Part shown: positions 6,685 to 58,003 of the stretch, piece after piece | Layout of the letters: each line of letters starts with the position of its first letter | How positions within the stretch are numbered: the stretch's first letter is position 1 | NCBI GenBank assembly: GCA_023150375.1 | Contig: JAKLLA010000018.1 | Location: 92,444-156,443, forward strand | Reading direction: 5' to 3' | DNA from: Burkholderiaceae bacterium | Lineage (GTDB): Bacteria > Pseudomonadota > Gammaproteobacteria > Burkholderiales > Burkholderiaceae_C | DNA length: 64,000 nucleotides | Notes under the pieces: model-generated | Seen by the model: only the letters and a program-made list of their open reading frames with translations | Database searches by the model: none | What the model was told of the DNA's origin: nothing | Translations under genes and position numbers: made by a program

Positions 6685-6686
6685 GG

Positions 6687-30370: not shown

Positions 30371-30379
30371 CCTGCCGCG

Positions 30380-31230: not shown

Positions 31231-31254
31231 TGTTACCGTTGAAAGGAAGACACC

Positions 31255-32415: not shown

Positions 32416-32543
32416 CCAAAGGGATCGGGTGGGACTGTTGCGCAGGGGGAGACCCAATTGGGGGGTAGTCATGGCCATGCGCAAAGGTCATTCATTAGTC
32501 TTAGCTCGTGCCCCCCCAGAAGAACACCAGTTGCTCGATCTGG

Positions 32544-35539: not shown

Positions 35540-35549
35540 CGCGTCAACC

Positions 35550-37454: not shown

Positions 37455-37481
37455 GTGTTTCCTCCCTGCAAGCGCAGGCAA

Positions 37482-38159
37482 TCAGTCTTTCAGGTGCACG
37501 AGTCGCGAGACGAGTTCGTGCATCGCTGTGTAGGGTTGGGTGCCATCAAAAGCGTTGGTGATTTCGGCCAGACGCTGCGCACGTGCCGTGGCGTCGTTCA
37601 ATCGGGCCTGCGTGGCTTGCCAATGGCCGCCGCCACCCTTCTCGTAGCCGGGCAGGTGGACTTTCAGCCGCTCCAGCGCCTCATGCCGGTGCAATGGGGC
37701 GTGCACGTCTTCGAAGTGCAGCAGCAGCCAAAGCTCGAAGCACGGCACCGAGGCCATGGCCTCCACTGGCACCGCTACCCCGTTGTCATTGCGAAGCTTG
37801 CCGCTCTGCGCGGCAGCCTGTGCAAGCGCTGCGTGGTAGCTCTTGTGCTCGTCGCGGTCGAAGACCACGATGATCCGGTCAAATTCACGGGGGTGGAGGC
37901 CGCGCTCCCGGTCGCCGTTCTTGAAGACGGTCAGGGCGTAATCGAGTACCTGCTGCGGCTCGGTCCCGAACTGGCTGTGAAGCACCTGAACATGCGCCGT
38001 TGCCAGCCGGTAGGCACGCTGAATCTCGCACAGATACTGCGGTTCGGTCTTCTCGCCTTCGCAGACGATCAGCAGCCGCTCATAGGGCTGCCGCACGGCC
38101 GCACGCCGCTTCAGGTTTCGCGCGGCCTGCCGGTGTTTGGGCTGGTTGTCCTTCCCCAT
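37482..38159 (-). CDS. rloB: RloB-domain protein (Toprim-like, AbiLii-like)
   Basis: A 225-residue RloB-family protein. The Toprim-like acidic pattern is visible as IVCEGEKTEPQY and IIVVFDRDEH, with a further PCFELWLLLHF block. In AbiL-type abortive infection and in Rlo loci such a protein partners with an AAA ATPase. Toprim nucleases often cut tRNA or DNA once activated by the ATPase. Its start is four bases after the rloA stop. It is followed after 27 bp by mod. Activity as an RNase or DNase effector is inference. Confidence 0.85.
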   Translation of the reverse strand: MGKDNQPKHRQAARNLKRRAAVRQPYERLLIVCEGEKTEPQYLCEIQRAYRLATAHVQVLHSQFGTEPQQVLDYALTVFKNGDRERGLHPREFDRIIVVFDRDEHKSYHAALAQAAAQSGKLRNDNGVAVPVEAMASVPCFELWLLLHFEDVHAPLHRHEALERLKVHLPGYEKGGGGHWQATQARLNDATARAQRLAEITNAFDGTQPYTAMHELVSRLVHLKD

Positions 38160-38163
38160 CGCT

Positions 38164-39432: not shown

Positions 39433-39570
39433 GACCCATCTCCTTATGAACAAGGAGTTCATTCTTGCAGAAAATGTTCAAGATAGGCGTCAATATTCGG
39501 TGAAGAATTGTGGATATTCCCCCTGGCAACACTGCGGGTTCAACCCCGAGTCCGCGCCATCGCGGTGCGT

Positions 39571-40410
39571 TCATAGCTGCGCACGGGCCACTCTCAGGCG
39601 GGCATCCAGCCGTTGTAGTTCCAGATTCAGGTCCACCTGCTTGGCGATCTGTCGTTCCTTGGCGGCCAGGCTTCGCAGGCGTGCCGCTTCTTGTTCCAGT
39701 CGTTGGCAGGCTCGCAGCGCGTCACGCTGGGCAGCGGCTGCGGTGGGGCCACTCGGCAGACGGAAGTTGCCGGTCAGGCGTGCGGCTTCTGCAGCGGTGA
39801 GGCAGTCCATCCAGCTCTGGTACAGAGCCATCAGGTCGTGATGCGGCCGGCGGTCCAGGGCCATCGCCTCCAGCAACGGGCCCGCGACGGATGCAGTGCC
39901 GGTGTTGGGGCCAAGCAGTTCGGAGCGAACCAACTCCCCGTCGAGCACCACCTTGCCCGCCTCGTTCTGAGCAGCACGCTTGTGGGCCAGGCTGAGGGCG
40001 AGCTGCGCCGGGGGCCGTGGCGGTCCGTCATCGGGCGTTGCGGTGGCACGCGGCACCAGCGTCTGGATCAGCAGCACAGGGTAGGGCACCGCCCGGTGCA
40101 CAAGCTCGGCCAACCGCAGCCACTGCGATGCCTTGCCATGCGTGGCACGCACCTGCACGCTCAGCACGGCCACTTCCAGGACCTCGCGCCCGTCGGCGCG
40201 GTGTTCCGGGATTGCTACGGTGCCGGGCTTCAGCGCAGCGATCCACTGCAGCTCCTCGATGCCGTCGGTCAGCAGGCGCCGGTCGGCCGCCGTCGGCGCG
40301 CCGTGCTCGGCCAGCATCTTCTTGGGCACGCGCTGGTCCACCCTTGCGCGCTCGGGCAAGGCCAGCGCCTTGACCACGTCGTCGGCGGTGAGGTGGGGCG
40401 TCGCCTTCAT
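39571..40410 (-). CDS. DUF4391 domain protein
   Basis: A 279-residue protein that I assign to DUF4391 from its layout: an N-terminal helical part with ALALPERARVDQRVPKKMLAEHG, a central conserved EVAVLSVQVR strand region, and a long Arg/Glu-rich C-terminal helix likely to be a coiled coil. No enzymatic motif is evident. Such genes recur beside SNF2 helicases and type III-like methylases in defence loci. Its ATG overlaps the stop of the DUF262 gene (ATGA), so it belongs to the helicase unit. It is probably a structural or adaptor subunit, which is inference. Confidence 0.72.
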   Translation of the reverse strand: MKATPHLTADDVVKALALPERARVDQRVPKKMLAEHGAPTAADRRLLTDGIEELQWIAALKPGTVAIPEHRADGREVLEVAVLSVQVRATHGKASQWLRLAELVHRAVPYPVLLIQTLVPRATATPDDGPPRPPAQLALSLAHKRAAQNEAGKVVLDGELVRSELLGPNTGTASVAGPLLEAMALDRRPHHDLMALYQSWMDCLTAAEAARLTGNFRLPSGPTAAAAQRDALRACQRLEQEAARLRSLAAKERQIAKQVDLNLELQRLDARLRVARAQL

Positions 40411-42194
40411 GGGGTCAGCGGTGCGCCGAAGGCCTTGACGGTGTCCTCGCTGTCGCGGCCCGACACGGTCTTGCCGGTGGCAGCCTCGATGAGGGTCAGC
40501 AATGCGCCGGCACGCAGGCGGATGAAGGCGTCAAAGTCGTCTGCGCGCAGTGCGGCCACCGGAATGACGTGCGAGGCCAGGAACTCGTCCAGGCTGGTCG
40601 GCGGCACCTGCTTGGCTTTCTGGATCCGGCCCAGGTAGACGCTGGGGGCGTCACCGCTGATGAAGCGGTTGGTGCCAGCGGCCAGCGGCGCCTTGTTGAT
40701 CACGCTGTTCCACTTGTCCTTGGGCAGCTTCTGCCTCTCGCACCACGCACGCGGGAAGATGTGGTGGATGTCGATGGCGTTGTTGAAGTAGGTGTTCAGG
40801 TCGATGGGCGTGCCGCTGACGAAGTCGCGCCCGCCGTGCTTCATCAGCAGGGCGGCCAGGCCTTTGTAGGCCGCTGCCAGTCGGCTCTGCAGTGACAGCA
40901 GGCGGGTGGGCGCGAAGTTGGCGTCGCGCACCGTGCGCGGTTCGGTGCCGCCGTCCACCCAAGCCACCACGTCCTGCATGTCCATCGCGAAGCGCGTCTC
41001 ATTGGCGCCGCCGTACAGCTCGCCCAGCACGCCGCTCCAATACCAACGCAACAGGCTCTGCTTGATGCCGTGCAGGGTTGTCCGTTCGCCCAGGTGGGCG
41101 CAGATCGCGGCCAGCGGGATCAGCTGCGTGGCATAGGGCAGGCTGCGCTCGTCGAAGATCTTCTCCTCGGCCAGCAGCTCGGCAGCGCGCTTGAAGCCCA
41201 GCTCCAGGGCCGCCTCCAGCGCTTTGAAGTCGGCCAGATCCAGCTTCAGCACGTCGGCACGCTTGCAGCTCACCGCCGTCTTCTGAGCCAGGTGCCGCCG
41301 GTAGCTGGCCAGCAGCGTGACGGCAGTCAGGAAGCTCGTGCCGTCCACGGCCTCCAGCACGTCGTGCTTGGCGGTCAGCCGTTCGCGCCGGGCGTCCCAG
41401 TCATCGCGCAGGTTGAACTCGTCCGCTGCAAAGGTGGCGGTCATCAGCTCGAACACGGTCAGCGTGACGCCGCCGGTGTTGACCTTCTCGAAGACCTGGC
41501 AAACGGCCTCCCGTGGCGTGTCCTGGGTCAGCTCGATGGCCGGTACCTTGAACTGCTGGAAGCGCAGCCAGATCTCGTTGCGGAACTTCTGCATGAACTG
41601 CATGGCTTCCGCGCCGAACTGGTGGTGGGCACTGAAGCCGCTCTCCCAGGTCATGAAGCCCTGGATGTCGAACAGCAGCGCCACCGGGAACAAGCGCTGG
41701 GTGTACTGCAGCTCAGGCGTGCTCACGTCGAGGTCGACCTTGCGGCCGAAGTCCGAGGTGACCTGCAGCGACTCGGGGACCGAGATGACGGCCTCCTCGC
41801 GGTCGGCGTGCGGATCCAGGCACTTGGCCATGTCCAGGAAGTAGAGCCGGCGGATGTCGGCACCCTTCTCGGTGCGCGTGGGCACGGGCTGGCCGCTGCG
41901 CAATGACAGGTACATCGAGGTCAGGCGTTGCTGGCCGTCCAGCACCAGGGTCTTGGGCTTGGGCGCGGGCTGCAGTTGCACGCCGGCGAACAGCCGGGGC
42001 TTGAACGGCACGCCACCGGCCTCCAGGAACATCACGGCGCCGATGGGGTACGACAGGGACAGACTCGCGATCAGCGACCGGATGTGGTTGTCATCCCAGA
42101 CCCAGCCGCGCTGGAAGTCGGGCAGCTGAATCTGACCGGCAGCGATGCCGTCGAGAACGTCCTTCAGTGCGGGTTCTGCGGTGCGAAAGCTCAT
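40407..42194 (-). CDS. DUF262 protein with C-terminal HNH-type motif
   Basis: A 595-residue protein. The N-terminal DUF262 domain has LPDFQRGWVWDDNHIRSLI and VLDGQQRLTSMYL. The C-terminal part has IDIHHIFPRAWC followed by NSVINKAPL and N-x-I, a DUF1524-like HNH nuclease pattern. It is a second GmrSD-type protein in this window and clearly distinct from the one at 4567. I place the start at ATG 42194; the 42248 codon overlaps the upstream gene. The gap to the SF1 helicase is 16 bp, and the stop overlaps DUF4391. A nucleotide-dependent nuclease role is inferred from the family. Confidence 0.87.
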   Translation of the reverse strand: MSFRTAEPALKDVLDGIAAGQIQLPDFQRGWVWDDNHIRSLIASLSLSYPIGAVMFLEAGGVPFKPRLFAGVQLQPAPKPKTLVLDGQQRLTSMYLSLRSGQPVPTRTEKGADIRRLYFLDMAKCLDPHADREEAVISVPESLQVTSDFGRKVDLDVSTPELQYTQRLFPVALLFDIQGFMTWESGFSAHHQFGAEAMQFMQKFRNEIWLRFQQFKVPAIELTQDTPREAVCQVFEKVNTGGVTLTVFELMTATFAADEFNLRDDWDARRERLTAKHDVLEAVDGTSFLTAVTLLASYRRHLAQKTAVSCKRADVLKLDLADFKALEAALELGFKRAAELLAEEKIFDERSLPYATQLIPLAAICAHLGERTTLHGIKQSLLRWYWSGVLGELYGGANETRFAMDMQDVVAWVDGGTEPRTVRDANFAPTRLLSLQSRLAAAYKGLAALLMKHGGRDFVSGTPIDLNTYFNNAIDIHHIFPRAWCERQKLPKDKWNSVINKAPLAAGTNRFISGDAPSVYLGRIQKAKQVPPTSLDEFLASHVIPVAALRADDFDAFIRLRAGALLTLIEAATGKTVSGRDSEDTVKAFGAPLTP

Positions 42195-42210
42195 GGTGTC
42201 AGCCTCGCCA

Positions 42211-44901
42211 TCACGCCTGTTCGGACTGGGCGGTGTCCCAGGTCGCACCGAAGTGCTTGCGCAGCGGCTCCAGCGCGAGCGGCAAGGCAGCGCTGCAGGT
42301 CACGCCCAGGTACTGGGCGGCGCGAGTGGCGCCGACATACAGGAACTTGTCGAACAACTCCGGGCGGGCAGCGGCCAGTTGGTCGATGCCCACGAAGAAG
42401 ACGGCCTCGAACTCCAGCCCCTTGATGTGCTGAACATCGAAGACCCGGACGTTGCTCTCCTGCCCGACGGCCTGGCCTTCGCGGCAAGCGACCACCTGAA
42501 TGTTCTGGTTGGCGAGCGCGTGGTTCAGCGCGTTGGCCACGGGTTCTACCTCGGCTTCCGAGTTGACGAAGATCGCCGTGGACGGTAGTCGTCCGTCGAG
42601 GAACCGGTCGATCCACTGAATCCTCGCAGCCAGCCAGCCCACGGCGTCTTCAAGGGATGCGCACTCCAGAAGCACCGGGGGTTCGCCCTCGTTGTTGACC
42701 TCGGTGGGCAAGGTGGCCTCTTGGTCGGAGCCCCCGACACACGCGATGATGTCCCGGGCCAGCTCGTTGAGCTGGCGACTCTGGCGGTAGGAGACCGTGA
42801 CACGCCGGATGTCGAAGTCCGCGAAGACCCACTGCAGCTCGTCGGCAGAGCGCGCCCCCCAGGTGGTCAGCCGCTGGTTGAAGTCGCCGCAGGCAAAGAA
42901 CGACCGCAAGCGCGGGTGCGCCAGTGCCGCCATGCAGGCCAGTTGGATCGGCGAGAAGTCGGTGGCCTCATCGACGACGACCTGGCTGCGCAGGGCGCCC
43001 AGCACGGGCTTCAGCGACGCCCAGGCGGGGCTGTCGATGTCACGCATCACTGTGGGCCGCTGCAGCAGTTCGCCAGCCGACCGGAGGATCGCCAGCAGGA
43101 CGAGATCCAACTCAAGCGGGTTCAGCTCACGGGCCTCGAAGCCCGTTTTCGCATACCACCGGCCCTCGTCCTGGCGAACCTTCCGGAAGGCGCGGTAGCG
43201 CTTCTGGATGCCATCCACGTAGCGCTTGACCGGGTTCACGAATCGCCGGGCATGGGCCTGGAGCAGCAGGCTTGTACCCAGGGCGCTCAGCTCGGCGGGC
43301 GCCAGCGTGCGGTCGCCCAGCCACTCGATGACCTTGCCGTTGCGGGTGGTCTTGTTGGGGGATCGCTTGGCTGCGGCATTGCGGGCCTGCGTGCGGACCG
43401 CTTGCATGTAGGCGTTGATGGCGGCCCCAGGGCCGACCTTGGGCGCCGCCACGTCCTCGTCGTCCTCGGTGTCCTGGTCATCGTCGGCATCGGTGTCGGC
43501 AGCTTGCTGCAGGCTTTCGATGAACTTCGCCAGCTCGCTGACCAAGCCCCGATTGCGGGCGAGTTGTGCGTTCAGCGCGGCTTTGATGGTGGCGTCGGTC
43601 TCGTCCTTGAGGCGCGCCACGAACGCCTGTATGGCGGGAAGCTCGCCTGCCAATGTTGTGAACGTGGACGGCCACGGGCCATTTTCTTTGAGGGTGGCTT
43701 GCAGGCGTTTCCCCAGTTGCTGCGCCGTCGCCAGCCCGGCGCCCGCCAGCGCCTGCGCGCTGTCCATGAGCTCGGCCCGGTACGCGGCGCCTTGCCAGGC
43801 TTGAAAGTCATCGAACCAAGCGATCGGCTGGGTCACGGCCGTCGGCTGCAGGCTGTTCACTTCCTTGAGGACGAAAGTTCCGCCGCCAGTGGCGGTCCGC
43901 AGGACGCCGAAGGTCTGCCTGGCCAGGTCGCGACGGTGGTCGGCCCAGGTGCGGATGTTCTGGTCTGGTGCTGGGATACCTTCCCGGGCAAAGGCCTCCT
44001 TCAGGTACTGCTTCAACAGCTCCGTCGGCGTGAACATCAGCCAGCTCTTCCCGTGCGGCACCTGCTGACTCTGGGCGAGTTCCTCAGCGACGCGCTGCTC
44101 GTCTTCGTCCAGAAACTGGGCGTCAAGCTTTTGCCCGAGGCGACGGATCAGCGTTGTCGTCTTGCCGGTGCCGGGGGGGCCAAGCAACAGGACACGGCGA
44201 TTGAGTGGCAGGCGGAAGATCTCGTCCTGGAACTGGTCCAGCACCGGCTGGTCGCGCAGACCCATCTTGGTGATGACGCTGCGCTTCATGCCCTCGATGA
44301 CGTTCTGGCTGGCCTCGGCGCTCGCCAGCAACTGGGCGACCAGGTCCTCGACGGGTTCTGCCAGCTCTGGGTGTCGCTCCAGCAGCTTGCGCAGCGATTC
44401 GATGGTGACCGTTGGCGCATCTTCCGACTGCACGACCGTGTAGGCGTCCCAAGATCCGGCCAGGGGCGACGGGCGTAGCTGTGCTCGCTCGACGACGATC
44501 AACGCCTTGCCATCGGGGCGGACGTACTCCTCGCCGACCGGCAAGGACGCCAGGCGACCAACTGGCGCGCGATAGCTGACCAAGCCCAGGTTGGCGAGGC
44601 CTTGCTCGGCGCGGCAGAAGTAGTAGGCGGTGCGGTGCCCGTCGTCGTCTTCAGCGATGACCCGGGCGATGGCTGGCTCGCTGGCCAGCTTGCGATACGC
44701 GGACTCGTTGGCCTGGTTGACTTCGTCGAGCGCTCGCGCGGCGCGATCCGAGTTCAGCGTGTTCCCGCCGGTGGCGAGCGCGTCTATGCCGAGACGGCGC
44801 GGGTTGGCCAGCCACTGGCGGGCTGTGCTTGCCACGGTGTCGAGCTTGTCGACGACATCCTTTGCCAGCGGCTTAAGGCGTTGGCTGTGCTCCATGCTCA
44901 T
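42211..44901 (-). CDS. SF1 (UvrD/Rep-like) helicase
   Basis: An 896-residue superfamily 1 helicase. Walker A is LLGPPGTGKTTTLIRRL (about 240), motif II is VVVDEATDFSPIQ, then FFACGDFNQRL, SYRQSRQLN, IKGLEFEAVFFVG and YVGATRAAQYLGV. A long insertion between motifs Ia and II includes an acidic linker (DTDADDDQDTEDDEDV). The N-terminal 200 residues do not match a helicase domain and are unrecognised. The start is ATG 44901 behind GGGAG, 29 bp inside the SNF2 gene, so the two are translationally coupled. It presumably unwinds or translocates on foreign DNA with its partners. Confidence 0.86.
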   Translation of the reverse strand: MSMEHSQRLKPLAKDVVDKLDTVASTARQWLANPRRLGIDALATGGNTLNSDRAARALDEVNQANESAYRKLASEPAIARVIAEDDDGHRTAYYFCRAEQGLANLGLVSYRAPVGRLASLPVGEEYVRPDGKALIVVERAQLRPSPLAGSWDAYTVVQSEDAPTVTIESLRKLLERHPELAEPVEDLVAQLLASAEASQNVIEGMKRSVITKMGLRDQPVLDQFQDEIFRLPLNRRVLLLGPPGTGKTTTLIRRLGQKLDAQFLDEDEQRVAEELAQSQQVPHGKSWLMFTPTELLKQYLKEAFAREGIPAPDQNIRTWADHRRDLARQTFGVLRTATGGGTFVLKEVNSLQPTAVTQPIAWFDDFQAWQGAAYRAELMDSAQALAGAGLATAQQLGKRLQATLKENGPWPSTFTTLAGELPAIQAFVARLKDETDATIKAALNAQLARNRGLVSELAKFIESLQQAADTDADDDQDTEDDEDVAAPKVGPGAAINAYMQAVRTQARNAAAKRSPNKTTRNGKVIEWLGDRTLAPAELSALGTSLLLQAHARRFVNPVKRYVDGIQKRYRAFRKVRQDEGRWYAKTGFEARELNPLELDLVLLAILRSAGELLQRPTVMRDIDSPAWASLKPVLGALRSQVVVDEATDFSPIQLACMAALAHPRLRSFFACGDFNQRLTTWGARSADELQWVFADFDIRRVTVSYRQSRQLNELARDIIACVGGSDQEATLPTEVNNEGEPPVLLECASLEDAVGWLAARIQWIDRFLDGRLPSTAIFVNSEAEVEPVANALNHALANQNIQVVACREGQAVGQESNVRVFDVQHIKGLEFEAVFFVGIDQLAAARPELFDKFLYVGATRAAQYLGVTCSAALPLALEPLRKHFGATWDTAQSEQA

Positions 44902-47900
44902 GCGTTGCTCCCTTTGTGTTTTGGGTGGGCAGTACCACCATGAATGCCAGCACCTCGAAGTCACCGGCCCCGGCGAACTCGCCCTTCATGGCGTGCGTGC
45001 CGCCGGGCGAGAACAAGCTGGCGACGGCGCGCTCTTCGGCCTTTCCGACCACTGAAGCCACGGCCGAGGCCAGCAGCTTCTGGGCGTGCCGCATGTCCTC
45101 GCCTTGGCGGGTCAGCTTGTCGTGGCGGCTGCTGGCGCCCAGGTCGGGCAGCTCGCGGCCCAGCGCCAGGCGCTTGAGGCGGTCCAGGATGCGCTTGGCC
45201 TGAGGGTAGGCGAGCACCGTGGTGCCGTCGTCGCCCACATGGGCCAGGTAGATCGGCGCCAGTGGGTAGTCGCCGGATCCGGCGCCGGCTGGGGCCTTGC
45301 TTCCGCCAGCGCCCTCGGCCCGCAGGCAGAAGATGATGCCGGGCTCGATGTCGGCGTCGATGCTGCTCGTGACGGCGTACGCGCCCAGCGGCATGCCCTC
45401 CAGCACCGCCGGATGGTCGCGAAGGAACTGCGCGAGGTCGATGCGGAAGTCGGTCAGCGTCAGGTCGGTGATCGAGACCCCGCTGCTCAGGTCTTCCATG
45501 TCGATGACGGAGTCCTGCAGCTTCAAGAGCTGCTTGCGGCGGTACTCCAGGTCGTTCATCGGGTCGCCGGACTGTTGCTCGATGAGGTTCTCCTCACCGG
45601 TGGCTGACACGTCCAGCAGCACCATGCGCCCGCTGACGCGCTGCTCCAGGTTGATGTACTCGTCGAGCGCGATGTTCGGCCAGAAGTTGACCAGTTGGAT
45701 GCTGCGGTTGGGCGAGCCGATGCGGTCGATTCGGCCGAAGCGCTGGATGATGCGGACCGGGTTCCAGTGGATGTCGTAGTTGATGAGCCAGTCGCAGTCC
45801 TGCAGGTTCTGACCTTCAGAGATGCAGTCGGTCGCGATCAGCAGGTCAATCTCGCCTTCACCGGCCATGTCGGCCGGGCGCTCCTTGGCGCGGGGCGCGA
45901 AGGCCGACAGCACGCTGCTCATGCTCTTGCGCAGGCCCGGCAGAGTGGTCTGGATGCCGGCGCTGCCGGTGACCAGGGCGGCGTCGATGCCCAGCGTGGC
46001 CTTGGCCCAGGGCGCCAGGTTGGCGTAGAGGTACTGGGCGGTGTCCGAGAACGCAGTGAAGACGATGATCTTGCGGTTGCCGTCGTTGATGGGGTGGCGG
46101 CACTTGTCCTCGACCATCTCGCGCAGCTTGGCCAGCTTGGCGTCACGTGCGGCATCCACCTGCTGGGCGGCGGTCAGCAGCGTGTCCAGGCGGTTGCGGT
46201 CCTCCACCAGGTCCTGACGCCACCGGATGCGGTCCACGTCGCCCAGCAGCACCTTCACCTTGCGGCCGACCAGCAGCGCCTCGAAGGCCGGGTCGTCGAT
46301 GTCCACGTCGGCGATGTCCAGCTCTTCGATGCCGTCCCCGTTGGTGGCCTGGCCGGCATGCTGCTCGATCTGCGCGAGCACCGCCTCCACGTCGCGGAGT
46401 TGCCGCTGCAGCGTCAGCGCGAACGACGATACGGCGCTCTCCATGCGCTTGAGCACGTTCACCCGCAGCAGGTGGATGAGGCTTTCCTCGCGGTCGGCCT
46501 GACGGAAGAAGCTCTCGCCGCCCCGGATCTCGGTGCTGTACTTGGCGTCGTAGGCAGCCTGCTTGTGCGGCAGCACGTAGCGCAGCGGCGCGTAGGCGGC
46601 CAGGTTCAGGCGCCGGATCTCCAGGTTGATGTCCTTGATGGCGCGGAACTGGCCCGCCCGGTCCACGTCGGCCTTGATGTTGATGGGCGGCCGGCGGTCC
46701 GGAAAGCGGCCGGTCTCCTGCGTGCCGTAGTACTTCTGGATGTGCCGGCGCGACCGCGCGATCGTCAGGTGGTCCAGGAGCGTGAAGTAGTCGAAGCCCA
46801 GCATCTCGACCAGACGGCTGGGCGTGCGCTCGCGCTCTTCCAGGCCGAGCCAGCGGTTGAACTGGATCTGCGCCTTGCGCGTGGTCTGCTGGATGCTGTC
46901 GATGCCGTAGTCGGCCAGCGCGGTGTCGTCGCCTTCGGTGGCGAACGCGATTTGGTTGCGCAGGTCGGTCAGCCGGTTGTTCACCGGCGTGGCCGACAGC
47001 ATCAGCACCCGGGTCTTGACCCCTTCCCGGATGATCTTGCGCATCAGTCGGTCGTAGCGTGTCTCGGTGCCTTGCCGGGGCGACTTCTTGTTGCGGAAGT
47101 TGTGGCTCTCGTCGATGACGACCAGGTCGTAGTTGCCCCAGTTCACATGGGACAGGTCGATGTCGCCCGAGTGGCCGCCGTCGCGCGACAGGTCGGTGTG
47201 GTTCAACACGTCGTAGTTGAACCGGTCCGCCGCCAGGATGTTGCGCTTGTCGTTGGCCTTGTAGAGGGTCCAGTTGTCGCGCAGGCGCTTGGGGGCCAGG
47301 ACCAGCACGCGGTCGTTGCGCAGCTCGTGGTACTTGATGACGGCCAGGGCCTCGAAGGTCTTACCGAGGCCTACGCTGTCCGCGATGATGCAGCCGCCAA
47401 AGCGCGCCAGCTTGTCGATGGCGCCGACCACGCCATCCCGCTGGAACTTGAAGAGCTTCTTCCAGACCACCGTGTTGCGGATGCCGGTGGCCGACTTGAC
47501 GATGCGCTCTTCGTCCAGCGCATCTTCCCGCCCGCCGAACAAGTGGTTCAGCATCAGCGCGTAGATCGCGAACGGCGCCCGGTGCTCGCCGATGGACTTG
47601 AGTTGGTCGAGCAAGGCCTGGCGCGCGGCGTCCGCCGACTCAGTGGCCGACGGCAGCGTCTTCCACTGCTGATCGAACCACTGGGCAAGCATCGCGGCCT
47701 CGGCGGAGCTCTCTGAGGCTTGCGTCAGGCTCAGGGGGTTGCCGGGCGTCAGCCCCAGCCCCTCCGTGCTCATGGCCACCGAACCCATGACGACTTGCTC
47801 GGGGGTGCCCTGCGCGTTGCGCAGCACGGCCGTGCCTTGCGGGATCCGGCCGGGTGCACGCCGTACCTCCACCTGGCCCTGTAGCCAAGCAGCGCACTGA

Positions 47901-48151
47901 TTGGCCAGCCACCGGGTCTGCAGCCGATTGCGGGCTGCACGGTCGCCTTCACCGCCCTGAATCTCCAGGTCCTGGCCTTCGCCCGGCAGGATGAGCTGGG
48001 TGCTGTTCACGCGGGCCAGCGCATCGCGCAGCTCGGCGTAGGCATGCAACGAAAAGGTCGGCGTCATGAACGCCAGCAACTGGCCCGTCTTCAGGTGGGG
48101 GCGCAGTAGGTCGATGGCGCGGTCAGCGCCTCGGTTCTGTACCAGCTTCAT
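44873..48151 (-). CDS. SNF2-type helicase with N-terminal PLD-like region
   Basis: A 1092-residue SF2 protein. The first 150 residues (LLAFMTPTFSLHAYAELRDAL) look like the phospholipase-D-like region often fused to such helicases, though I see no complete HKD motif. Helicase motifs follow: IIADSVGLGKTFEALAVI (Walker A), VVIDESHNFRNK (DESH), LSATPVNNRL, then a C-terminal lobe with KIIVFTAFSDTAQYL, TDCISEGQNLQDC and QRFGRIDRIGS. It is the large translocase of the island. Its ATG overlaps the stop of a small upstream ORF (ATGA) and its end overlaps the SF1 helicase start. Confidence 0.9.
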   Translation of the reverse strand: MKLVQNRGADRAIDLLRPHLKTGQLLAFMTPTFSLHAYAELRDALARVNSTQLILPGEGQDLEIQGGEGDRAARNRLQTRWLANQCAAWLQGQVEVRRAPGRIPQGTAVLRNAQGTPEQVVMGSVAMSTEGLGLTPGNPLSLTQASESSAEAAMLAQWFDQQWKTLPSATESADAARQALLDQLKSIGEHRAPFAIYALMLNHLFGGREDALDEERIVKSATGIRNTVVWKKLFKFQRDGVVGAIDKLARFGGCIIADSVGLGKTFEALAVIKYHELRNDRVLVLAPKRLRDNWTLYKANDKRNILAADRFNYDVLNHTDLSRDGGHSGDIDLSHVNWGNYDLVVIDESHNFRNKKSPRQGTETRYDRLMRKIIREGVKTRVLMLSATPVNNRLTDLRNQIAFATEGDDTALADYGIDSIQQTTRKAQIQFNRWLGLEERERTPSRLVEMLGFDYFTLLDHLTIARSRRHIQKYYGTQETGRFPDRRPPINIKADVDRAGQFRAIKDINLEIRRLNLAAYAPLRYVLPHKQAAYDAKYSTEIRGGESFFRQADREESLIHLLRVNVLKRMESAVSSFALTLQRQLRDVEAVLAQIEQHAGQATNGDGIEELDIADVDIDDPAFEALLVGRKVKVLLGDVDRIRWRQDLVEDRNRLDTLLTAAQQVDAARDAKLAKLREMVEDKCRHPINDGNRKIIVFTAFSDTAQYLYANLAPWAKATLGIDAALVTGSAGIQTTLPGLRKSMSSVLSAFAPRAKERPADMAGEGEIDLLIATDCISEGQNLQDCDWLINYDIHWNPVRIIQRFGRIDRIGSPNRSIQLVNFWPNIALDEYINLEQRVSGRMVLLDVSATGEENLIEQQSGDPMNDLEYRRKQLLKLQDSVIDMEDLSSGVSITDLTLTDFRIDLAQFLRDHPAVLEGMPLGAYAVTSSIDADIEPGIIFCLRAEGAGGSKAPAGAGSGDYPLAPIYLAHVGDDGTTVLAYPQAKRILDRLKRLALGRELPDLGASSRHDKLTRQGEDMRHAQKLLASAVASVVGKAEERAVASLFSPGGTHAMKGEFAGAGDFEVLAFMVVLPTQNTKGATHEHGAQPTP

Positions 48152-48462
48152 CGTGCGCGTTCAACCTCCACGGCCGCGCCGACCGCCGGGGCGGCCGGGG
48201 CGGCCGGGGCCGCGGTCCAACCGCTGCTCTCCGAACGGTCAATGCACCATCCAACGGATGCGCAATAGGGGGTGAGATCAGTGACCTCAAGAGAACCAGC
48301 AACCCCCTTGACGCTCATGATTTCTCCCGACTTTCGGGCCATAGGAACTTGCAATACTGATCCTTTAGGGTCGAGTTTAGGCCAGTCCAACACGAGAATT
48401 TGCATCGGACTCAAGAGTAGCTGGATCACCTCAAGTACTTCTGCACATTGGGCAGTCAACAC
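48148..48462 (-). CDS. Hypothetical small protein coupled to the SNF2 helicase gene
   Basis: A 104-residue ORF from GTG 48462. I do not recognise it. It has a hydrophobic N-terminal stretch (VIQLLLSPMQILVLDWP) and a low-complexity Ala/Pro tail coded by a CGGCCGGGG repeat. Its stop overlaps the SNF2 start (ATGA), which favours translation. Against it, the start is GTG with no clear ribosome-binding site, the frame begins inside the end of a decayed gene, and the base composition is lower in GC than the neighbours. This region must also carry the island promoter, so it may be a leader rather than a gene. Confidence 0.38.
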   Translation of the reverse strand: MLTAQCAEVLEVIQLLLSPMQILVLDWPKLDPKGSVLQVPMARKSGEIMSVKGVAGSLEVTDLTPYCASVGWCIDRSESSGWTAAPAAPAAPAVGAAVEVERAR

Positions 48463-49036: not shown

Positions 49037-50254
49037 TCAGAGCATCTCTCTCCAGCGCGCCTCGCCGTCGAAGACGGCCGCGACGGGCCGGATGCGCTCG
49101 TAGGGGATGGCCTCGTGGTTGGCCAGGGCCGGGGTGCGGTTCTGCATGAACTCGCGCACCGCGGCCAGCAGGCAGCGCCGCACCGCCAGAACCGCACCGT
49201 CGCCAGCGCCCAGGTACTCCTTGCTGCGGTCGACGATCGGACCCATGCTCATGATCACCGCGAAGTCCTCGGTGCCCAGCGCCTGGGTAAAGCCGGTGAA
49301 GTGGCCGTTCTTCATGGCCTCGCGGTCCTGGCCCCAGTTGTCCTCGGGCGGGCCCGGCGGCAGCGGCGGCCAGGACTCGGGGCGGGTGTCCGACACCTGC
49401 TGGGTGATCTCCACCGGCTGGTCGAAGTCGTAGACGATGTTCCAGTAGCACAGGTGCTCGTCGTCCACCGGCACGGCGAAGAAGAAGTTGCCGCCGCGCG
49501 ACTGGCTGCGCCCGGGCGCCACCACGCCGTACCAGGGCAGCACGAAGGAGTTGGTCCGCACGTACGAGCTGCCGTCGGCGAGCGCGCGCACCGAGGCGTA
49601 GCGGAAGCCGTAGGGCTTCTGCTCGACGTGGTAGACCGGCGCCATGTTGGCCGACGACAGGCGGATGTCGCCCACGCTGGAGAGCCAGCTCTGGTGCAGC
49701 ATGCCGAGGTGGGCCGAGTCCATCGTCGTCTCCACGCCCTGCAGCCAGTTGGCGGGCACCGTCTGGCACACCGCCACCACATGGCCGGGCGGCAGGCCGC
49801 AGAACTCGAAGTTCTGGAACTTCGGCGGCGTGTCGCCCTCGCCGAGCCACACCCAGTAGATGCCGCCCTCCTCGCGCACGGGGTAGTGCTCGAGCGGCAC
49901 GTGCTTGCAGTACTCGGCCTCGTTGGCCGGCTGGGTGGGCACGGCCACGGTGACGCCCTCGACGCTGAACTTCCAGCCGTGGTAGATGCAGCGCAGCGCG
50001 TTGTCCTCGTTGCGCGCCAGGGCCATCGAGGCGCCGCGGTGCGGGCAGGCCTCGTCGAAGAAGCCCACCTTGCCGCCGGTGGCGCGGAAGGCCACGTAGT
50101 TGCGGCCCAGCAGGCGCACCCGCCTGGGCTTGCCGTCGGCTTCCAGCTGGGCCGACAGGCCGGCGGGGATCCACCAGTGCTGGCGGATCATGCGCCCCAT
50201 CGGGGCATCGCCGCTGACGCGGGTGAGCAGCTCGTTGTCTTCACGGGACAGCAT
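49037..50254 (-). CDS. Rieske non-heme iron oxygenase, alpha subunit (right arm)
   Basis: A 405-residue paralogue of the oxygenase at 16166. The Rieske motifs CPHRG and CIYHGW and the iron site ETTMDSAHLGMLH are intact. Protein identity is near complete over residues 50-120 and high around ESWPPLPPGPPEDNWGQ, but much lower elsewhere. The two enzymes may therefore share electron partner and fold but differ in substrate pocket. AGGAG precedes ATG 50254. It is the last gene of the right-arm operon. No reductase is nearby. Confidence 0.93.
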   Translation of the reverse strand: MLSREDNELLTRVSGDAPMGRMIRQHWWIPAGLSAQLEADGKPRRVRLLGRNYVAFRATGGKVGFFDEACPHRGASMALARNEDNALRCIYHGWKFSVEGVTVAVPTQPANEAEYCKHVPLEHYPVREEGGIYWVWLGEGDTPPKFQNFEFCGLPPGHVVAVCQTVPANWLQGVETTMDSAHLGMLHQSWLSSVGDIRLSSANMAPVYHVEQKPYGFRYASVRALADGSSYVRTNSFVLPWYGVVAPGRSQSRGGNFFFAVPVDDEHLCYWNIVYDFDQPVEITQQVSDTRPESWPPLPPGPPEDNWGQDREAMKNGHFTGFTQALGTEDFAVIMSMGPIVDRSKEYLGAGDGAVLAVRRCLLAAVREFMQNRTPALANHEAIPYERIRPVAAVFDGEARWREML

Positions 50255-50329: not shown

Positions 50330-52189
50330 TCAGGCCATCACGATCACCTCGGCGTCCGGCCGTTCGGCAAACAGGCGCGCCACCTCGGCGGACCGGCGCG
50401 TCAGCACCAGCCGCTGGTTGACGTAGCCCTTGTCGGTGATCTCGCCGGCGCCGATGTCGGGCGGCTGCGTCAGCAGCAGCAGGCGGTGCACCTGGCGGCT
50501 GCTGCCGCCGGCTGCACGGTTGTGCGCCTCGAAGGCGGCGCGCAGCGTCTCGCGCAGCCCGGGATCGGCAACGAGGTCTGCCAGCGAGGCGTCGGGCCGA
50601 CCGAGCCGGGCGCGGCAGGCCGCCGGGTTCGGCCAGGCCAGCAGCGCCACGAAGGGCTGGTCGGCACCGGCCACCACCACGTCGTTGAGCAGCCCCTGCG
50701 CCGCCTCGATGCAGTCCACCCGCAGCGCACCGACGCGCACGAAGATGCCGGACTGCAGCTTGAATTCCTCGGTCACCCGGCCGCTGAAGAACAGGCCGGC
50801 CTCGGGCCGATCGGGGTCGGCGAACTGCACCGCGTCGCCCATGCGGAAGAAGCCTTCCTCGTCGAAGGCCTCGGCCGTGGCCTGCGGTTGATTCAGGTAG
50901 CCCGGTGTCACGCAGGCGCTGCGCACCCGGATCTCGTAGCGCTGGTCGTCCATCGGCAGCAGCTTCACCGTCACGCCCGGGTGCGGCAGGCCGATCACGC
51001 CGGCGCTGTCGGCGCACCAGTGCGTCACCGTCACGGCCGCGGCGGTCTCGGTGGAACCGAAGGCCGAGACGAAGGGGATGCGTGCGCCGATGCTGCGCAC
51101 CGCGGCGGCCTGGATGCGGTCGAACACCGAATCCGGCAGGCGCGCGCCGGCATAGTTGGTGCGGCGCAGGCGGCGGAAGAAGGCGTCGGCCAGCATCGGG
51201 TCCGCCTCCATCGCCTCGGCCAGCATGGTGTAGCCCAGCGGCACGCTGATGAAGTTGGTGGGTGACACCTCGCGCAGGTTGCGCAGCGTTTCGTCGAACA
51301 GGCCCGGCACCGGCTTGCCGTCGTCGATCCAGAGCTCGCCGCCTTCGGCCAGTGCCACGCCGAACATGATGTTGCCGCTGGCCACATGGCTCCAGGGCAT
51401 CCAGTCCAGCAGCACGCTGGGCGGCGTGCCGGGCGGGTCGAGCACCACCTGCCGGTGCATGGTGATGCTGATCGTCAGCATGCCGTGGGTGATCGTCGCC
51501 GCCTTGGGCAGGCCGGTGGAGCCGGAGGTGAAGAGGTACTTGGCCACCGTCTCCGGCCGGATCGCCGCCACCGAGTCGGCCACCGCCGGCCCGGGACGCA
51601 CGGCCAGCCAGTCGGGCCAGTGCGCCGTCGCCAGATCCTCCGGACCCGACTCGACCACCACACGCACCCCATCGGCCGGCAGGCGCAGGCCACGCAGCGC
51701 GCGCTCGAAATGCCGGCCATCCTGCGCGAACACCACCGCCGGCTGCAGCAGGTCCACCATGCCCTGCAGCTTGGCCAGGTCCTGCGTCAGCAGCGAATAG
51801 GCAGGCGTGATGGGTACATAGGGCATGCGCGCCTGCATGGCCGCCAGCTCCAGCACGCCATGCTCGATCGAGTTGCCACTGAGCACCGCGACGCAGCGCC
51901 CGGGCCGGTCCAGGTCGAGCAGGGCCTGCGTCACCGCATCGACCTGGCGCAGCGCCTCGCCGTAGTGCAGCTGCCGCCACTGCCGCTGCGGGCCGTGGCG
52001 CTGCGACAGCCACAGGGCGTCCGGTCGGCTGCGGCCATGCCGGCGCAGCAGCCCCGGCAGGTGCGGCTCGACTTCGCCCAGCGGCACGCGGCTGCTCAGC
52101 AGCAGCGTGCCGTCGTCGCGCCGCTGCAGCGCGAGGTCGCGCGGCATGAAGGGCAGGTCGCGAAAAGGTACGTCGGTCAGCACCGTCAC
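50330..52189 (-). CDS. Feruloyl-CoA-synthetase-type acid-CoA ligase (right arm)
   Basis: A 619-residue adenylate-forming ligase, paralogue of 13416-15296. The adenylation loop is YLFTSGSTGLPKAA, with FGSTETAAAVT and the C-terminal GEITDKGYVNQRLVL. The N-terminal PRDLALQRRDDG and VLSGNSIEHGV blocks follow the feruloyl-CoA synthase subfamily. The start is GTG 52189, with GGAGG upstream. It lies 18 bp after the acyl-CoA dehydrogenase stop and 75 bp before the Rieske gene. A second ligase with a different acid specificity is likely. Confidence 0.9.
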   Translation of the reverse strand: MTVLTDVPFRDLPFMPRDLALQRRDDGTLLLSSRVPLGEVEPHLPGLLRRHGRSRPDALWLSQRHGPQRQWRQLHYGEALRQVDAVTQALLDLDRPGRCVAVLSGNSIEHGVLELAAMQARMPYVPITPAYSLLTQDLAKLQGMVDLLQPAVVFAQDGRHFERALRGLRLPADGVRVVVESGPEDLATAHWPDWLAVRPGPAVADSVAAIRPETVAKYLFTSGSTGLPKAATITHGMLTISITMHRQVVLDPPGTPPSVLLDWMPWSHVASGNIMFGVALAEGGELWIDDGKPVPGLFDETLRNLREVSPTNFISVPLGYTMLAEAMEADPMLADAFFRRLRRTNYAGARLPDSVFDRIQAAAVRSIGARIPFVSAFGSTETAAAVTVTHWCADSAGVIGLPHPGVTVKLLPMDDQRYEIRVRSACVTPGYLNQPQATAEAFDEEGFFRMGDAVQFADPDRPEAGLFFSGRVTEEFKLQSGIFVRVGALRVDCIEAAQGLLNDVVVAGADQPFVALLAWPNPAACRARLGRPDASLADLVADPGLRETLRAAFEAHNRAAGGSSRQVHRLLLLTQPPDIGAGEITDKGYVNQRLVLTRRSAEVARLFAERPDAEVIVMA

Positions 52190-52207: not shown

Positions 52208-53992
<1,785 letters not shown>

Positions 53993-54001: not shown

Positions 54002-55693
54002 TCAGTCTGCGCCGGGCACGAAGCGGCCGCCTTCGCGCGCCAGCCGCTCCAGCAGCGCGGCAGGGCGGAAGCGCTCGCCGAAGCGCTCCTGCAGCTCGCC
54101 CAGGCGGCGCAGCACCCAGGCGGCGCCCAGCCGGTCGGCGTGGTACATCGGGCCGCCGCGCCAGGCCGGCCAGCCGAAGCCGCGCTGCCAGACCACGTCG
54201 ATGTCGCTGGCCCGGTCGACGATGCCCTCCTCGACCAGCTTGGCGCCCTCGTTGAGCATCGGCAGCAGGAGCCGGTCGCGCACTTCGTCGTCGCCGATCG
54301 CCCGGCGCTCGATGCCGAGTTCGCGCGAGGCCTGTTCGATCAGCGCGGTGACTTCCGGGTCGGGGATCGGCCGGCGCTTGCCCGGATCGTAGCGGTAGAA
54401 GCCCTTGCCGGTCTTCTGGCCCAGCCGCCCGGCCGCCACCAGGCCGGCCAGGATGGGGTCGTGCTGGCCACGCTCCTGGCGCACCCGGTGGACCAGCTCG
54501 ATGCCGCCGGCCATGTCGGCCAGTTCGTAGCTGCCCATGGGCAGGCCGAACTCGGTGAGCACCCGGTCGATCTGCTGCGGCAGCGCGCCTTCGAGCAGCA
54601 GCCGGTCGGCTTCCTGGTCACGCGCGATGAGCAGCCGGTTGCCGACGAAGCCATGGCACACGCCCACCACCACCGCCGTCTTGCGCAGCCGGCTGCCGAT
54701 GCGCTGGGCCGCCGCGACCACCTCGGGCCGGGTGCGCGGGCCACGCACCACCTCGAGCAGCGGCATCACATGCGCCGGGCTGAAGAAGTGCAGGCCGACC
54801 ACCTGGCCGGGCCGGCTGGTGGCGTCCGCGATGCGGTCGATGTCCAGCGCCGAGGTGTTGCTGCCGAGGATGGCGTGGGCCGGCGCATGGCGGTCGATCT
54901 GCGCAAAGATCTCCTGCTTGAGCGCGAGCTGCTCCCACACTGCCTCGATCACCAGGTCGGCCTGGGCGACATCCTCGACACGTGTGCTCAGGTGCAGCGC
55001 CGCACGGCGTGCAGCGGCATCCTCCGCGCTGAGTCGGCCACGCTTGACCATGGCGTCGAAGTGGTTCCCCACCGTCTGGCGGGCCGATTCGAGCACGGCC
55101 TCGCTGCGGTCGATCAGCGTCACCGGCAGGCCCGCCGCGAGCAGCGCGGTGGTGATGCCCGAGCCCATGCTGCCGGCGCCCACCACCGCCGCCTGCCGCA
55201 GCGGCGGGGCATCGTCGTCGGCGCTGATGCCATTGGCTGCCGCGCGCAGCGCCTGCGCCGCATAGGCGCGGGCGCGGTTGGCCTCGGGGGTCGTGAAGGT
55301 GGCCGCCGGCACGCCTTCGGCCCCTTCGCTGACGTGCAGCTCGACCGGGTCGCCGATGCGCAGGCCGAAGACATCGGCATCGATGACCGAGGTGGTGATG
55401 CGCGGCCCCTCGGGCAGCTCGACCACCGCAACCGCCGTGGGCCGCTTCGCGCCGCGCACGATCGAGAACGAATAGACCGTGCCGACGCCGCGGGTGGTCA
55501 GCCACTCGGTGGGCGCATGGCCGCAGAACGGGCAGTGTTCGCGCGGGTAGAAGTGCGCCGATCCGCAGGCGCTGCAGTGCTTGATCAGCAGCCGCCCTTC
55601 GGCCAGGGCTTCCAGGTAGGGCGCGGCCGCGGGAAAGCGCTGCGCCGGGGTGAGCGTGGGGGACGGGGCGTGGACAGGAGAGGGTCGTGCCAT
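54002..55693 (-). CDS. DUF35 (Zn ribbon + OB fold) fused to 3-hydroxyacyl-CoA dehydrogenase
   Basis: A 563-residue fusion. Residues 1-135 are a DUF35 unit: a zinc ribbon with Cys at 40, 43, 54 and 57 (CSACGSAHFYPREHCPFCG), then an OB fold (GTVYSFSIVRGAKRP...). From about 165 a 3-hydroxyacyl-CoA dehydrogenase begins, with Rossmann motif VVGAGSMGSGI, LGSNTSALDI, GLHFFSPAHVMPLLEVV, HGFVGNRLL and two C-terminal 3HCDH domains. DUF35 proteins normally accompany thiolase- or aldolase-type partners as separate chains. The thiolase-like gene is 4 bp upstream in the same operon, so the fusion may dock the dehydrogenase to it and channel a 3-oxoacyl-CoA. GGAG precedes the ATG. Confidence 0.9.
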   Translation of the reverse strand: MARPSPVHAPSPTLTPAQRFPAAAPYLEALAEGRLLIKHCSACGSAHFYPREHCPFCGHAPTEWLTTRGVGTVYSFSIVRGAKRPTAVAVVELPEGPRITTSVIDADVFGLRIGDPVELHVSEGAEGVPAATFTTPEANRARAYAAQALRAAANGISADDDAPPLRQAAVVGAGSMGSGITTALLAAGLPVTLIDRSEAVLESARQTVGNHFDAMVKRGRLSAEDAAARRAALHLSTRVEDVAQADLVIEAVWEQLALKQEIFAQIDRHAPAHAILGSNTSALDIDRIADATSRPGQVVGLHFFSPAHVMPLLEVVRGPRTRPEVVAAAQRIGSRLRKTAVVVGVCHGFVGNRLLIARDQEADRLLLEGALPQQIDRVLTEFGLPMGSYELADMAGGIELVHRVRQERGQHDPILAGLVAAGRLGQKTGKGFYRYDPGKRRPIPDPEVTALIEQASRELGIERRAIGDDEVRDRLLLPMLNEGAKLVEEGIVDRASDIDVVWQRGFGWPAWRGGPMYHADRLGAAWVLRRLGELQERFGERFRPAALLERLAREGGRFVPGAD

Positions 55694-55697: not shown

Positions 55698-56867
55698 TCA
55701 CTCCGCGGCCAGGATCAGCGTGCCCGAGGCGTGGTAGCCCGCCAGCGAGCCGCCGGTGCCGTGGGCCAGCACGATGTCGTGGTTCTTCACCTGCACGGCC
55801 GGATGGGCTTCGCCGCGGCACTGCCGCACCGCTTCGAGGATCTTGGTCATGCCGCCCTTGTTGCCGGGGTGGTTGTTGCACAGGCCGCCGCCGTCGGTGT
55901 TGAAGGGCAGCCGCCCGACGCCCGAGATGAGGTTGCCGTCGGCGACGAAGCGCCCGCCCTCGCCCTTCTTGCAGAAGCCCAGGTCCTCCAGCTGCAGGAT
56001 CACCGTGATCGTGAAGCTGTCGTACAGCGAGGCGTACCGGATGTCGGCCGGTGTGACGCCGGCTTCCGCGAAGGCGGTGGCGCCCGAGCGCACCCCGGCG
56101 GAATACGTCAGGTCGATGCGGCCGCCGTCGGCATGCTTGAAGGCCTCGCCGGCGCCGATCACCTTCACCCGCGGGCGCTTCAGCGACCTGGCGATCTCCG
56201 GCCGCGCCACCACCACCGCGCCGCCGCCGTCGGTCATCACGCAGCAGTCCAGCCGGTGCAGCGGGTCGGCCACCATCGGCGAGTCCAGCACGTCCTGCAC
56301 CGTCAGCACCTTGCGCATCAAGGCGTGCGGGTTGTGCTGCGCATGGTGCGAGGCGGCCACCTTCACCCAGGCCAGCTGCTCGCTGGTGGTGCCGAACTCG
56401 TGCATGTGCCGGCGCGCGACCATCGCGTAGCCGTACATCGGCACGGGTACCGTGCCGGCGTAGTACGGGCGGTCCGGCATGCGGCTGAAGTCGATGCCCG
56501 CCAGCGAGGTGCCGGCATGGGCCGCCAGCGGGCGGTCGGCCAGCGTCACCAGCGCCACGTTGCACTGGCCGGCGGCGATCGCCCGCATCGCATGGTTCAC
56601 ATGCAGCAGGTAGGACGAACCGCCGGTCTCGGTGCTGTCGAGGTAGCGCAGATGCCGCAGGCCGAGGTACTCGGCCATCGACATGCCGCCGATGCCCGGG
56701 GCGTCGGCGGCGCAGAAGTAGCCGTCGACATCGTCCAGGCCCAGGCCCGCGTCGGCCAGCGCGCCGCGGGCCACGTCGGCATGCAGCTGCGCCGCGGTCA
56801 GACCGTCGGCCCGGCGGACCGGGTGCTCGTGGATGCCTACGATGTAGGCCTTGCCGTTCACACTCAT
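55698..56867 (-). CDS. Thiolase-like (SCP2/Ltp2-type) protein without the usual nucleophilic Cys
   Basis: A 389-residue thiolase-fold protein, from ATG 56867 (the 57104 start belongs to a shadow frame). The C-terminal blocks CNNHPGNKGGMTK and AHGTGGSLAGYHASG are present. At the position of the nucleophilic Cys of true thiolases (C-A-S-G type) it has STETGGSS (residues 78-85). Cys-less thiolase-fold proteins such as Ltp2 act as aldolases and need a DUF35 partner. The next gene encodes a DUF35 domain, so a retro-aldol or related C-C cleavage is as likely as thiolysis. It lies 11 bp after the TctC-type gene. Confidence 0.85.
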   Translation of the reverse strand: MSVNGKAYIVGIHEHPVRRADGLTAAQLHADVARGALADAGLGLDDVDGYFCAADAPGIGGMSMAEYLGLRHLRYLDSTETGGSSYLLHVNHAMRAIAAGQCNVALVTLADRPLAAHAGTSLAGIDFSRMPDRPYYAGTVPVPMYGYAMVARRHMHEFGTTSEQLAWVKVAASHHAQHNPHALMRKVLTVQDVLDSPMVADPLHRLDCCVMTDGGGAVVVARPEIARSLKRPRVKVIGAGEAFKHADGGRIDLTYSAGVRSGATAFAEAGVTPADIRYASLYDSFTITVILQLEDLGFCKKGEGGRFVADGNLISGVGRLPFNTDGGGLCNNHPGNKGGMTKILEAVRQCRGEAHPAVQVKNHDIVLAHGTGGSLAGYHASGTLILAAE

Positions 56868-56878
56868 GGGAGGACTCT

Positions 56879-57865
56879 TCACGCGTCCGGCTTGAAGCCG
56901 GTCTTGCGCACCCGATCGGGCCAGGCGGCGTGGTTGTCGCGCATGGCCTTGGCGAAGTCGGCCTGCGTGCTCGTGTCCGCCTCGATCGCCAGCTTGTTCA
57001 GCACCTCGACGGTCTCCGGCTGCGCGATGGCCGTGCGGATGGCCCCGTGGGCGCGTGCGACCGTGGCTTCCGACGCGCCGCGCGGCATCCACACGCCGTA
57101 CCACTCGGCCGACTCCATGAAGGAGAAGCCCTGCTCGCCGAAAGTCGGCACCTCCTGCGCGAAGCGCGACCGCCGGGCGCCGGAGGTGGCCAGCAGGCGC
57201 ATGCGGCCGCTGGCGCGGTGCGGCAGCGAGTCGCCCACCGGCGAGTACATCGCCGGAATCTGCCCGCCCAGCAGGTCCTGCACCCCGGGTGCCGAGCCGC
57301 GATACGGGATGTGATTCAGCGCCACCCCGGACTCCCGGGACAGCAGCCGGACGAAGAACTCCTGCGGGCTGCCGGCGCCGGGAGAGCCGAAATTGGCGCG
57401 CGCGGGGTTGGCCTTCACCCAGTCCAGGAAGTCACGCACGGTCCTGACCGTCTCGGGCACCGCCGGGCCGACGGCAAAGCCGTACTGGACCGTTCCGCAG
57501 CCGGCGACGGCCACACCGTCCTCGAACTTGAAGGGCGTGTTCTTCGGATCGACGTGCGGCTGCAGCGTGATGACGGTCTCGGGCTGCAGGATGACGACGC
57601 TGCCATCGGTCGCGCCGCGACGCATCTCGTCGAAGGCCAGACGCCCCCCCGCGCCCACCTTGTTCTCCACGATCACCTGCCGGGCGTAGCCGACGGTCCG
57701 CAGGCCCTCGGCCAGCCGCCGGGCGGCGGCATCGGTGGTCCCGCCGGCCGGAAAGCCGCAGAGGATCCTGGCGATCTCCAGGGGCCCCTGAGCCCGCAGT
57801 GGCGCGGAGGTCGCTGCGGCCAGCGCAGCCATCCCACCGACGACTTGTCGACGTGTCACGTTCAT
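56879..57865 (-). CDS. Tripartite tricarboxylate-type (TctC/Bug) solute-binding protein
   Basis: A 328-residue periplasmic binding protein of the Bug/TctC family, abundant in Burkholderiales. The start is ATG 57865 behind AAGGAG. The N-terminus is a twin-arginine-type signal (TRRQVVGGMAALAAATSAPLRAQ). Family blocks include FPAGGTTDAAARRLAE, VENKVGAGGRLAFDEM, NFGSPGAGSPQEFF and HIPYRGSAPGVQDLLGGQI. No TctA or TctB membrane partner is present. It is the first gene of the right-arm operon, directly downstream of two operator-like sites, and probably captures the aromatic acid or senses it. Confidence 0.92.
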   Translation of the reverse strand: MNVTRRQVVGGMAALAAATSAPLRAQGPLEIARILCGFPAGGTTDAAARRLAEGLRTVGYARQVIVENKVGAGGRLAFDEMRRGATDGSVVILQPETVITLQPHVDPKNTPFKFEDGVAVAGCGTVQYGFAVGPAVPETVRTVRDFLDWVKANPARANFGSPGAGSPQEFFVRLLSRESGVALNHIPYRGSAPGVQDLLGGQIPAMYSPVGDSLPHRASGRMRLLATSGARRSRFAQEVPTFGEQGFSFMESAEWYGVWMPRGASEATVARAHGAIRTAIAQPETVEVLNKLAIEADTSTQADFAKAMRDNHAAWPDRVRKTGFKPDA

Positions 57866-57950: not shown

Positions 57951-57966
57951 ATAAGTCGACCTGATC
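57951..57966. promoter_or_regulatory. MarR-type operator candidate, right arm site 3
   Basis: ATAAGTCGACCTGATC matches left-arm site 1 (GTAAGTCTACCTTATC) at 13 of 16 positions. On the minus strand it adjoins TTATAA, a possible -10 element of the operon that starts with the TctC-type gene. Confidence 0.58.
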
Positions 57967-57987
57967 TTTTTTTTATCGGTGAAAATA

Positions 57988-58003
57988 CTAAGGTAACCTG
58001 ATA
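57988..58003. promoter_or_regulatory. MarR-type operator candidate, right arm site 4
   Basis: CTAAGGTAACCTGATA, with the perfect core AGGT-A-ACCT, again fits TAAGKYNRCCTKAT. It is 37 bp from site 3 in the 171-bp gap between the dnaE2 stop and the TctC-type gene. Confidence 0.58.

Follow-up and report, generated by a model that had tools for sequence, protein, structure and literature searches.

Two putative operators in front of the right-arm operon, sites 3 and 4, very probably belong to the MarR-family regulator encoded at 10880-11314, which would thereby control its own operon, the left arm (13416-30856) and the right arm (57865-49037). This assignment was drawn from comparisons of the window, that is, the whole stretch of 64,000 nucleotides that we analyzed, with the genome of its source and with related loci. 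Operator-type sites occur at the promoters of both arms, and one candidate regulator is present. The initial annotation had proposed that this one MarR protein joins both arms into a single regulon. Our results support that proposal through the restriction of the sites to these places in the genome, the presence of a single MarR of this subfamily, the conservation of the operator together with the MarR, and the gene order of relatives.

Putative operator sites at the two promoters

The putative operator has a palindromic core of 13 bp, TAAGGTNACCTTA, and the four sites are variants of it. Site 1 (13253-13265, TAAGTCTACCTTA) and site 2 (13315-13327, TAAGGTTGCCTTA) are 62 bp apart in the divergent promoter at 13253-13327. 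Site 3 (57952-57964, TAAGTCGACCTGA) and site 4 (57989-58001, TAAGGTAACCTGA) are 37 bp apart, upstream of the TctC-thiolase operon. The longer strings at this right promoter are ATAAGTCGACCTGATC from position 57951 and CTAAGGTAACCTGATA from position 57988. The sequence readout confirmed the earlier count that site 3 is identical to site 1 (GTAAGTCTACCTTATC) at 13 of 16 bases. The claim that the same operator recurs about 45 kb away, at the right-arm promoter (57951-58003), also held when examined by reading the sequence, by a genome scan and by a matrix made from relatives only.

The search pattern TAAGKYNRCCTKAT was derived from the four sites themselves and is therefore a fitted pattern. Its exact matches in the window were four, namely the four named sites. 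When up to two mismatches were allowed, the window contained 10 matches as compared with 2.75 expected, and none of 100 shuffles reached 10. Because the pattern had been fitted to the sites, we carried out further tests with a genome scan and an independent matrix. An exact scan of the 4.63-Mb genome (43 contigs) with the core pattern, which is the consensus of the four sites, found only these four places, and the reversed control pattern gave 1 match in the same scan.

The weight matrix was trained on 16 operator sites of eight relatives, and the sequence of the window was excluded from the training. The genome-wide test consisted of the pattern scans and a simulation, and the matrix itself served to rank the sites within the window. 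With the 23-bp form of this matrix, sites 1 to 4 took ranks 1 to 4 in the window. Their scores were 29.9, 23.6, 23.2 and 15.3 bits, and the next best score in the window was 4.4. The other two-mismatch matches in the genome scored from -14.6 to 6.8 bits, as compared with about 15.3-29.9 bits for the four sites. In 20 Mb of simulated DNA, no score was equal to that of site 1, 2 or 4. For site 3, the 23-bp matrix gave an expectation of 0.23 equal scores per 4.63 Mb of simulated DNA; by the 13-bp core alone this site was not significant, about one such match being expected per 64 kb. We consider site 3 credible because of its flanks and its distance of 37 bp from site 4.

The two promoters are not the same in every respect. 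Both right-arm sites possess the weaker half CCTGA where the left sites possess CCTTA. Since this half is weaker, repression of the right arm is predicted to be weaker, and the arms may be unequally repressed. In addition, a TAGGG-N(5-8)-ATG element lies at 13270-13300, between the paired left operators. It occurs in some form in several relatives (for example, TAGGGTTTGTACTATGTGGA) and is absent from the right-arm promoter. This element may possibly be a promoter element or the site of a second regulator; as it is missing at the right arm, the arms may differ in their activation. The sequence beside the sites was also searched for consensus sigma-70 promoters, and none was detected.

Gene content and separation of the arms

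The MarR gene (minus strand, 144 amino acids) is the last gene of its operon, behind acyl-CoA dehydrogenase 1 (AcylDH1; 11365-13185, minus strand), which was assigned by Pfam and matches the cluster copies of the relatives at 64-71%. On the other side of the divergent promoter, the left arm runs on the plus strand. It begins with a feruloyl-CoA-synthetase-like acyl-CoA ligase (13416-15296), which scored 830 bits with NCBIfam PRK12582 against a cut-off of 777. We take this model to represent feruloyl-CoA synthetases, and the model itself is titled only "acyl-CoA synthetase". Then follow an enoyl-CoA hydratase (ECH; 15293-16108, Pfam ECH_1), a LigXa-type Rieske oxygenase (Rieske oxygenase 1; 16130-17383, Pfam Rieske and LigXa_C), and an ABC importer of the peptide/nickel type with a binding protein, ATPases and two permeases (17448-23115). 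Within the importer, at 19118-21221, the first ATPase seems to start in a different frame from its continuation near 19470-19490, which may reflect a frameshift or an assembly error.

The next gene encodes a LigB-type extradiol dioxygenase (23182-24177), whose assignment is based on Pfam LigB; no related solved structure was found for it. It is followed by a gene for a LigY-like meta-cleavage-compound hydrolase (24221-25219). Its product is an amidohydrolase, and the homology to LigY spans the full length (residues 1-330, PDB 6e6i/5vn5, E=1.5e-154). The remainder of the left arm (25244-30856) encodes an FAH hydrolase, a gentisate-dioxygenase-like cupin, an FAD monooxygenase, a CoA transferase, a citryl-CoA-lyase-like protein and a hemerythrin.

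The right arm lies on the minus strand in the order TctC-thiolase-HCDH-AcylDH2-ligase2-Rieske2. The first gene encodes a TctC-type solute-binding protein (56879-57865), and the second a thiolase (55698-56870) that matches the relatives' cluster copies at 75-80%. The third product (HCDH; 54002-55693) is a fusion of DUF35(ChsH2) with 3-hydroxyacyl-CoA dehydrogenase. Then come acyl-CoA dehydrogenase 2 (AcylDH2; 52208-53992), matching AcylDH1 at 61%, acyl-CoA ligase 2 (50330-52189), which is over the PRK12582 cut-off with 801 bits, and LigXa-type Rieske oxygenase 2 (49037-50254), matching Rieske oxygenase 1 at 73%. In agreement with the initial annotation, we found no recognizable regulator among the genes of the right arm.

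The arms are separated by a block of about 18 kb of foreign genes (31230-48462), which contains an IS3-type transposase and defence genes for type III restriction-modification, AbiL/RloB, GmrSD_N and helicases. The type III restriction (Res) region at 32544-35539 consists of two overlapping frames (32544-35174 and 34934-35539), a possible frameshift. At 1360-9779, to the left of the MarR gene, there are type I restriction-modification genes into which a GmrSD gene is inserted, and thus defence genes flank the left arm on both sides. The present arrangement of the arms may come from the splitting of one ancestral locus, or from the retention of a sister operon and the loss of the copies on the left. 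In the DnaE2 neighbourhoods of four congeners we did not see an empty insertion site. DnaE2 and its upstream genes align in these congeners, and the far side had no match to the window or to the contig over 60 kb leftward.

Both gene blocks together look like one pathway degrading a plant (lignin-type) aromatic acid. The substrate of LigY is the ring-cleavage product of a 5,5'-biaryl (DDVA). The combination of a LigY homologue, LigXa-type Rieske oxygenases and a LigB-type dioxygenase with ligases, ECH, DUF35-HCDH and thiolase makes a 5,5'-linked phenylpropanoid acid the simplest substrate. Judging from these gene families, the substrate is probably a LigY-type 5,5'-biaryl phenylpropanoid acid whose side chains are of the C3 type; 5,5'-dehydrodiferulate would be an example. 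Hydroxycinnamates or related acids had been named earlier as candidates. The simple hydroxycinnamate was rejected as incomplete, because it leaves the LigY homologue in the left arm unexplained.

One candidate MarR regulator and its relatives

The product of the MarR gene has a winged helix-turn-helix domain (Pfam MarR, 52.5 bits, cut-off 24.6; E=4.7e-14) with the recognition helix MTAQSMGEFIKAME. This helix, MTAQSMGEF, is nearly invariant among relatives, even in members of 40% identity. Relatives with 53-64% identity have a sporadic distribution and were seen in Paraburkholderia, Hydrogenophaga pseudoflava and a Comamonadaceae MAG. The regulator was present in 6 of 144 Paraburkholderia genomes, and a seventh carried it at 44% identity. 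Neither 299 other genomes sampled from the source's own family nor plasmid records, searched at E 1e-20, gave a relative. In the source genome this protein is the sole member of the subfamily. The next nearest MarR proteins are only 26-28% identical, and therefore there is one obvious candidate regulator.

The site pair was present in the divergent thiolase/ligase promoter of every relative with an intact locus. In the six relatives read at length (G300, G301, G303, G305, G306 and G314), thiolase and ligase are separated by the pair of TAAGGT sites; thiolase-HCDH-AcylDH is on one side of the divergent promoter and ligase-ECH-Rieske on the other. LigB and LigY follow further along, and then FAH, cupin and FAD monooxygenase in most of them. 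Two more loci (L019 and L021) showed the same pair between thiolase and ligase over the part of the locus that was read. The spacing of the two sites in Hydrogenophaga is 62 bp, as at the left promoter of the window. Eight further sites in relatives, which had been kept out of the training set, scored 16-37 bits; they belong to additional promoters of these loci, among them those of further ligase and MarR genes. The palindrome was found in 7/7 of the Paraburkholderia genomes bearing the MarR as compared with 22/137 of those without it (Fisher p=7e-6).

In one relative (G445, MarR 44% identical), the ligase is relocated and its own promoter has the site pair, and the thiolase promoter has one site. 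This genome has a single MarR, and sites occur at four promoters across 28 kb; it is a separate, independent case in which a single MarR of this kind has several dispersed promoters. In the window, AcylDH1-MarR directly adjoins the left promoter, and the thiolase and HCDH are absent there and present in the right arm. That is, the genes adjoining the MarR-controlled promoter in relatives are right-arm genes here, and the shared operator therefore most likely keeps the split pathway under one regulator. Separately, we observed that G303 (L046) and G306 (L049/L050) each carry a pair of MarR paralogues whose recognition helices are the same; each paralogue is near its own ligase and site, and cross-talk between them is possible.

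We propose that the MarR protein would bind the two sites at 13253-13327 and the two at the right promoter, and that without substrate it would repress all three transcripts (AcylDH1-MarR, the left arm and the right arm). After uptake of the aromatic acid, the feruloyl-CoA-synthetase-like ligases would activate it. Either the acid itself or, more probably, the CoA thioester formed from it would then release the repressor, and both arms would be induced jointly. The left arm would supply the ligase, ECH, Rieske oxygenase, ring-cleavage dioxygenase and LigY hydrolase, and the right arm DUF35-HCDH and thiolase, completing the shortening of the side chain, so that each arm would need the other. 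A repressor role, with release by an early compound of the pathway, often a CoA thioester, is expected by analogy with CouR, FerC, DdvR and DesR.

A different history would be a separate acquisition of the right arm together with a sister MarR, since lost; the decaying sites of this arm would then be bound by the remaining MarR weakly or not at all, the arms being independent in practice. The right-arm HCDH matches the relatives' cluster copies at 54-56%, as compared with 59-94% among the relatives themselves, and ligase 2 matches them at 50-58%. As these two proteins are divergent, the right arm may have a separate origin and may act on a related but different substrate. The CCTGA halves with their lower scores, and the presence in G303 and G306 of an additional MarR next to an additional ligase that has a site of its own, would also fit. 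However, site 4 retains a perfect TAAGGT half and a score of 20.3 of 27 bits. The left arm without thiolase and HCDH would be expected to place joint expression under selection, and the sister MarRs of relatives keep the same helix and site, so that cross-binding would be likely. We therefore regard independent arms as unlikely.

The binding of MarR to the sites is a prediction, and other, distant MarR proteins are encoded in the genome, one of which, or another transcription factor, might bind real operators here. We consider this very improbable, because the palindrome and this MarR occur together across genera while the remaining genome differs, and because sites lie upstream of the MarR gene or its operon in the window, G303, G306, G305 and G445. 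Chance resemblance of the right-arm sites, for which the weak core of site 3 might speak, was rejected as scarcely credible from the genome scan with its four exclusive matches, the relatives-only matrix and the co-occurrence of palindrome and MarR, since two sites share one intergenic region and site 4 was unequalled in simulated genomes. Control of both arms by the MarR protein at 10880 is thus our preferred reading.

Comparison with known systems

The system resembles CouR of Rhodococcus jostii (PMC4737184) and FerC of Sphingobium SYK-6 (PMC5487221) in that the MarR gene belongs to a ligase/hydratase cluster, in that several promoters, one of them divergent, have inverted-repeat operators, and in that the pathway begins with CoA activation. 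The operators differ, since the CouR box is cATTGA-N5-TCAATg (PMC4737184) and the operator here is TAAGGTNACCTTA. In contrast to both systems, the putative regulon here is split by the foreign genes and includes biaryl ring-cleavage genes. A literature search found no paper printing these operator strings. DesR of SYK-6 is likewise one MarR that binds similar inverted repeats, which lie upstream of its own gene and of several genes for aromatic catabolism; however, the DesR operator is GTTTGTGTMACATAC, its effectors are vanillate and syringate, and there is no CoA step (PMC6888825).

In gene content, the window is like the DdvR/DDVA genes of SYK-6, in which a MarR-type repressor acts on a cluster of Rieske O-demethylase, LigZ-type dioxygenase and LigY (PMC6874591). 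The LigY homologue is matched at full length, and the Rieske oxygenase matches LigXa_C (Pfam, 4.8e-32), whereas the dioxygenase matches Pfam LigB only. The window differs in adding ligases and a full set for side-chain beta-oxidation, and in having an ABC importer and TctC instead of DdvK/DdvT. The zinc-ribbon/OB DUF35 domain of ChsH2 type in HCDH, adjoining a Thiolase_C_1-type thiolase, is reminiscent of the benzoylsuccinyl-CoA thiolase BbsAB, which acts on an aromatic beta-ketoacyl-CoA. The unusual difference is that this BbsA-like part is joined to the dehydrogenase, and the NCBIfam BbsA and BbsB models scored far below their cut-offs on the window proteins.

The greater interest of the system lies in its likely substrate. 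The system offers a candidate gene set for breaking down 5,5' dimers of lignin and cell walls with their side chains retained. As a tentative idea, the genes might encode an undescribed pathway in which 5,5'-linked phenylpropanoid dimers undergo CoA activation and beta-oxidation to a DDVA-like biaryl, which LigXa/LigZ/LigY-type enzymes would open, the paired enzymes serving both rings, or both side chains, of a single dimer. If this is true, the action of paired ligases, dehydrogenases and Rieske oxygenases on one dimer would account for the need of an operator common to the two arms. Our literature search found no paper joining LigY/LigZ with diferulate and thiolase.

The analysis also gives a precise operator, TAAGGTNACCTTA, for an uncharacterized MarR subfamily in Burkholderiales, and this shared operator apparently holds the pathway together after the defence island separated its genes. 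We think that the system belongs with the known MarR regulons of the CouR/FerC/DdvR kind, and the comparative evidence speaks well for a single regulon.
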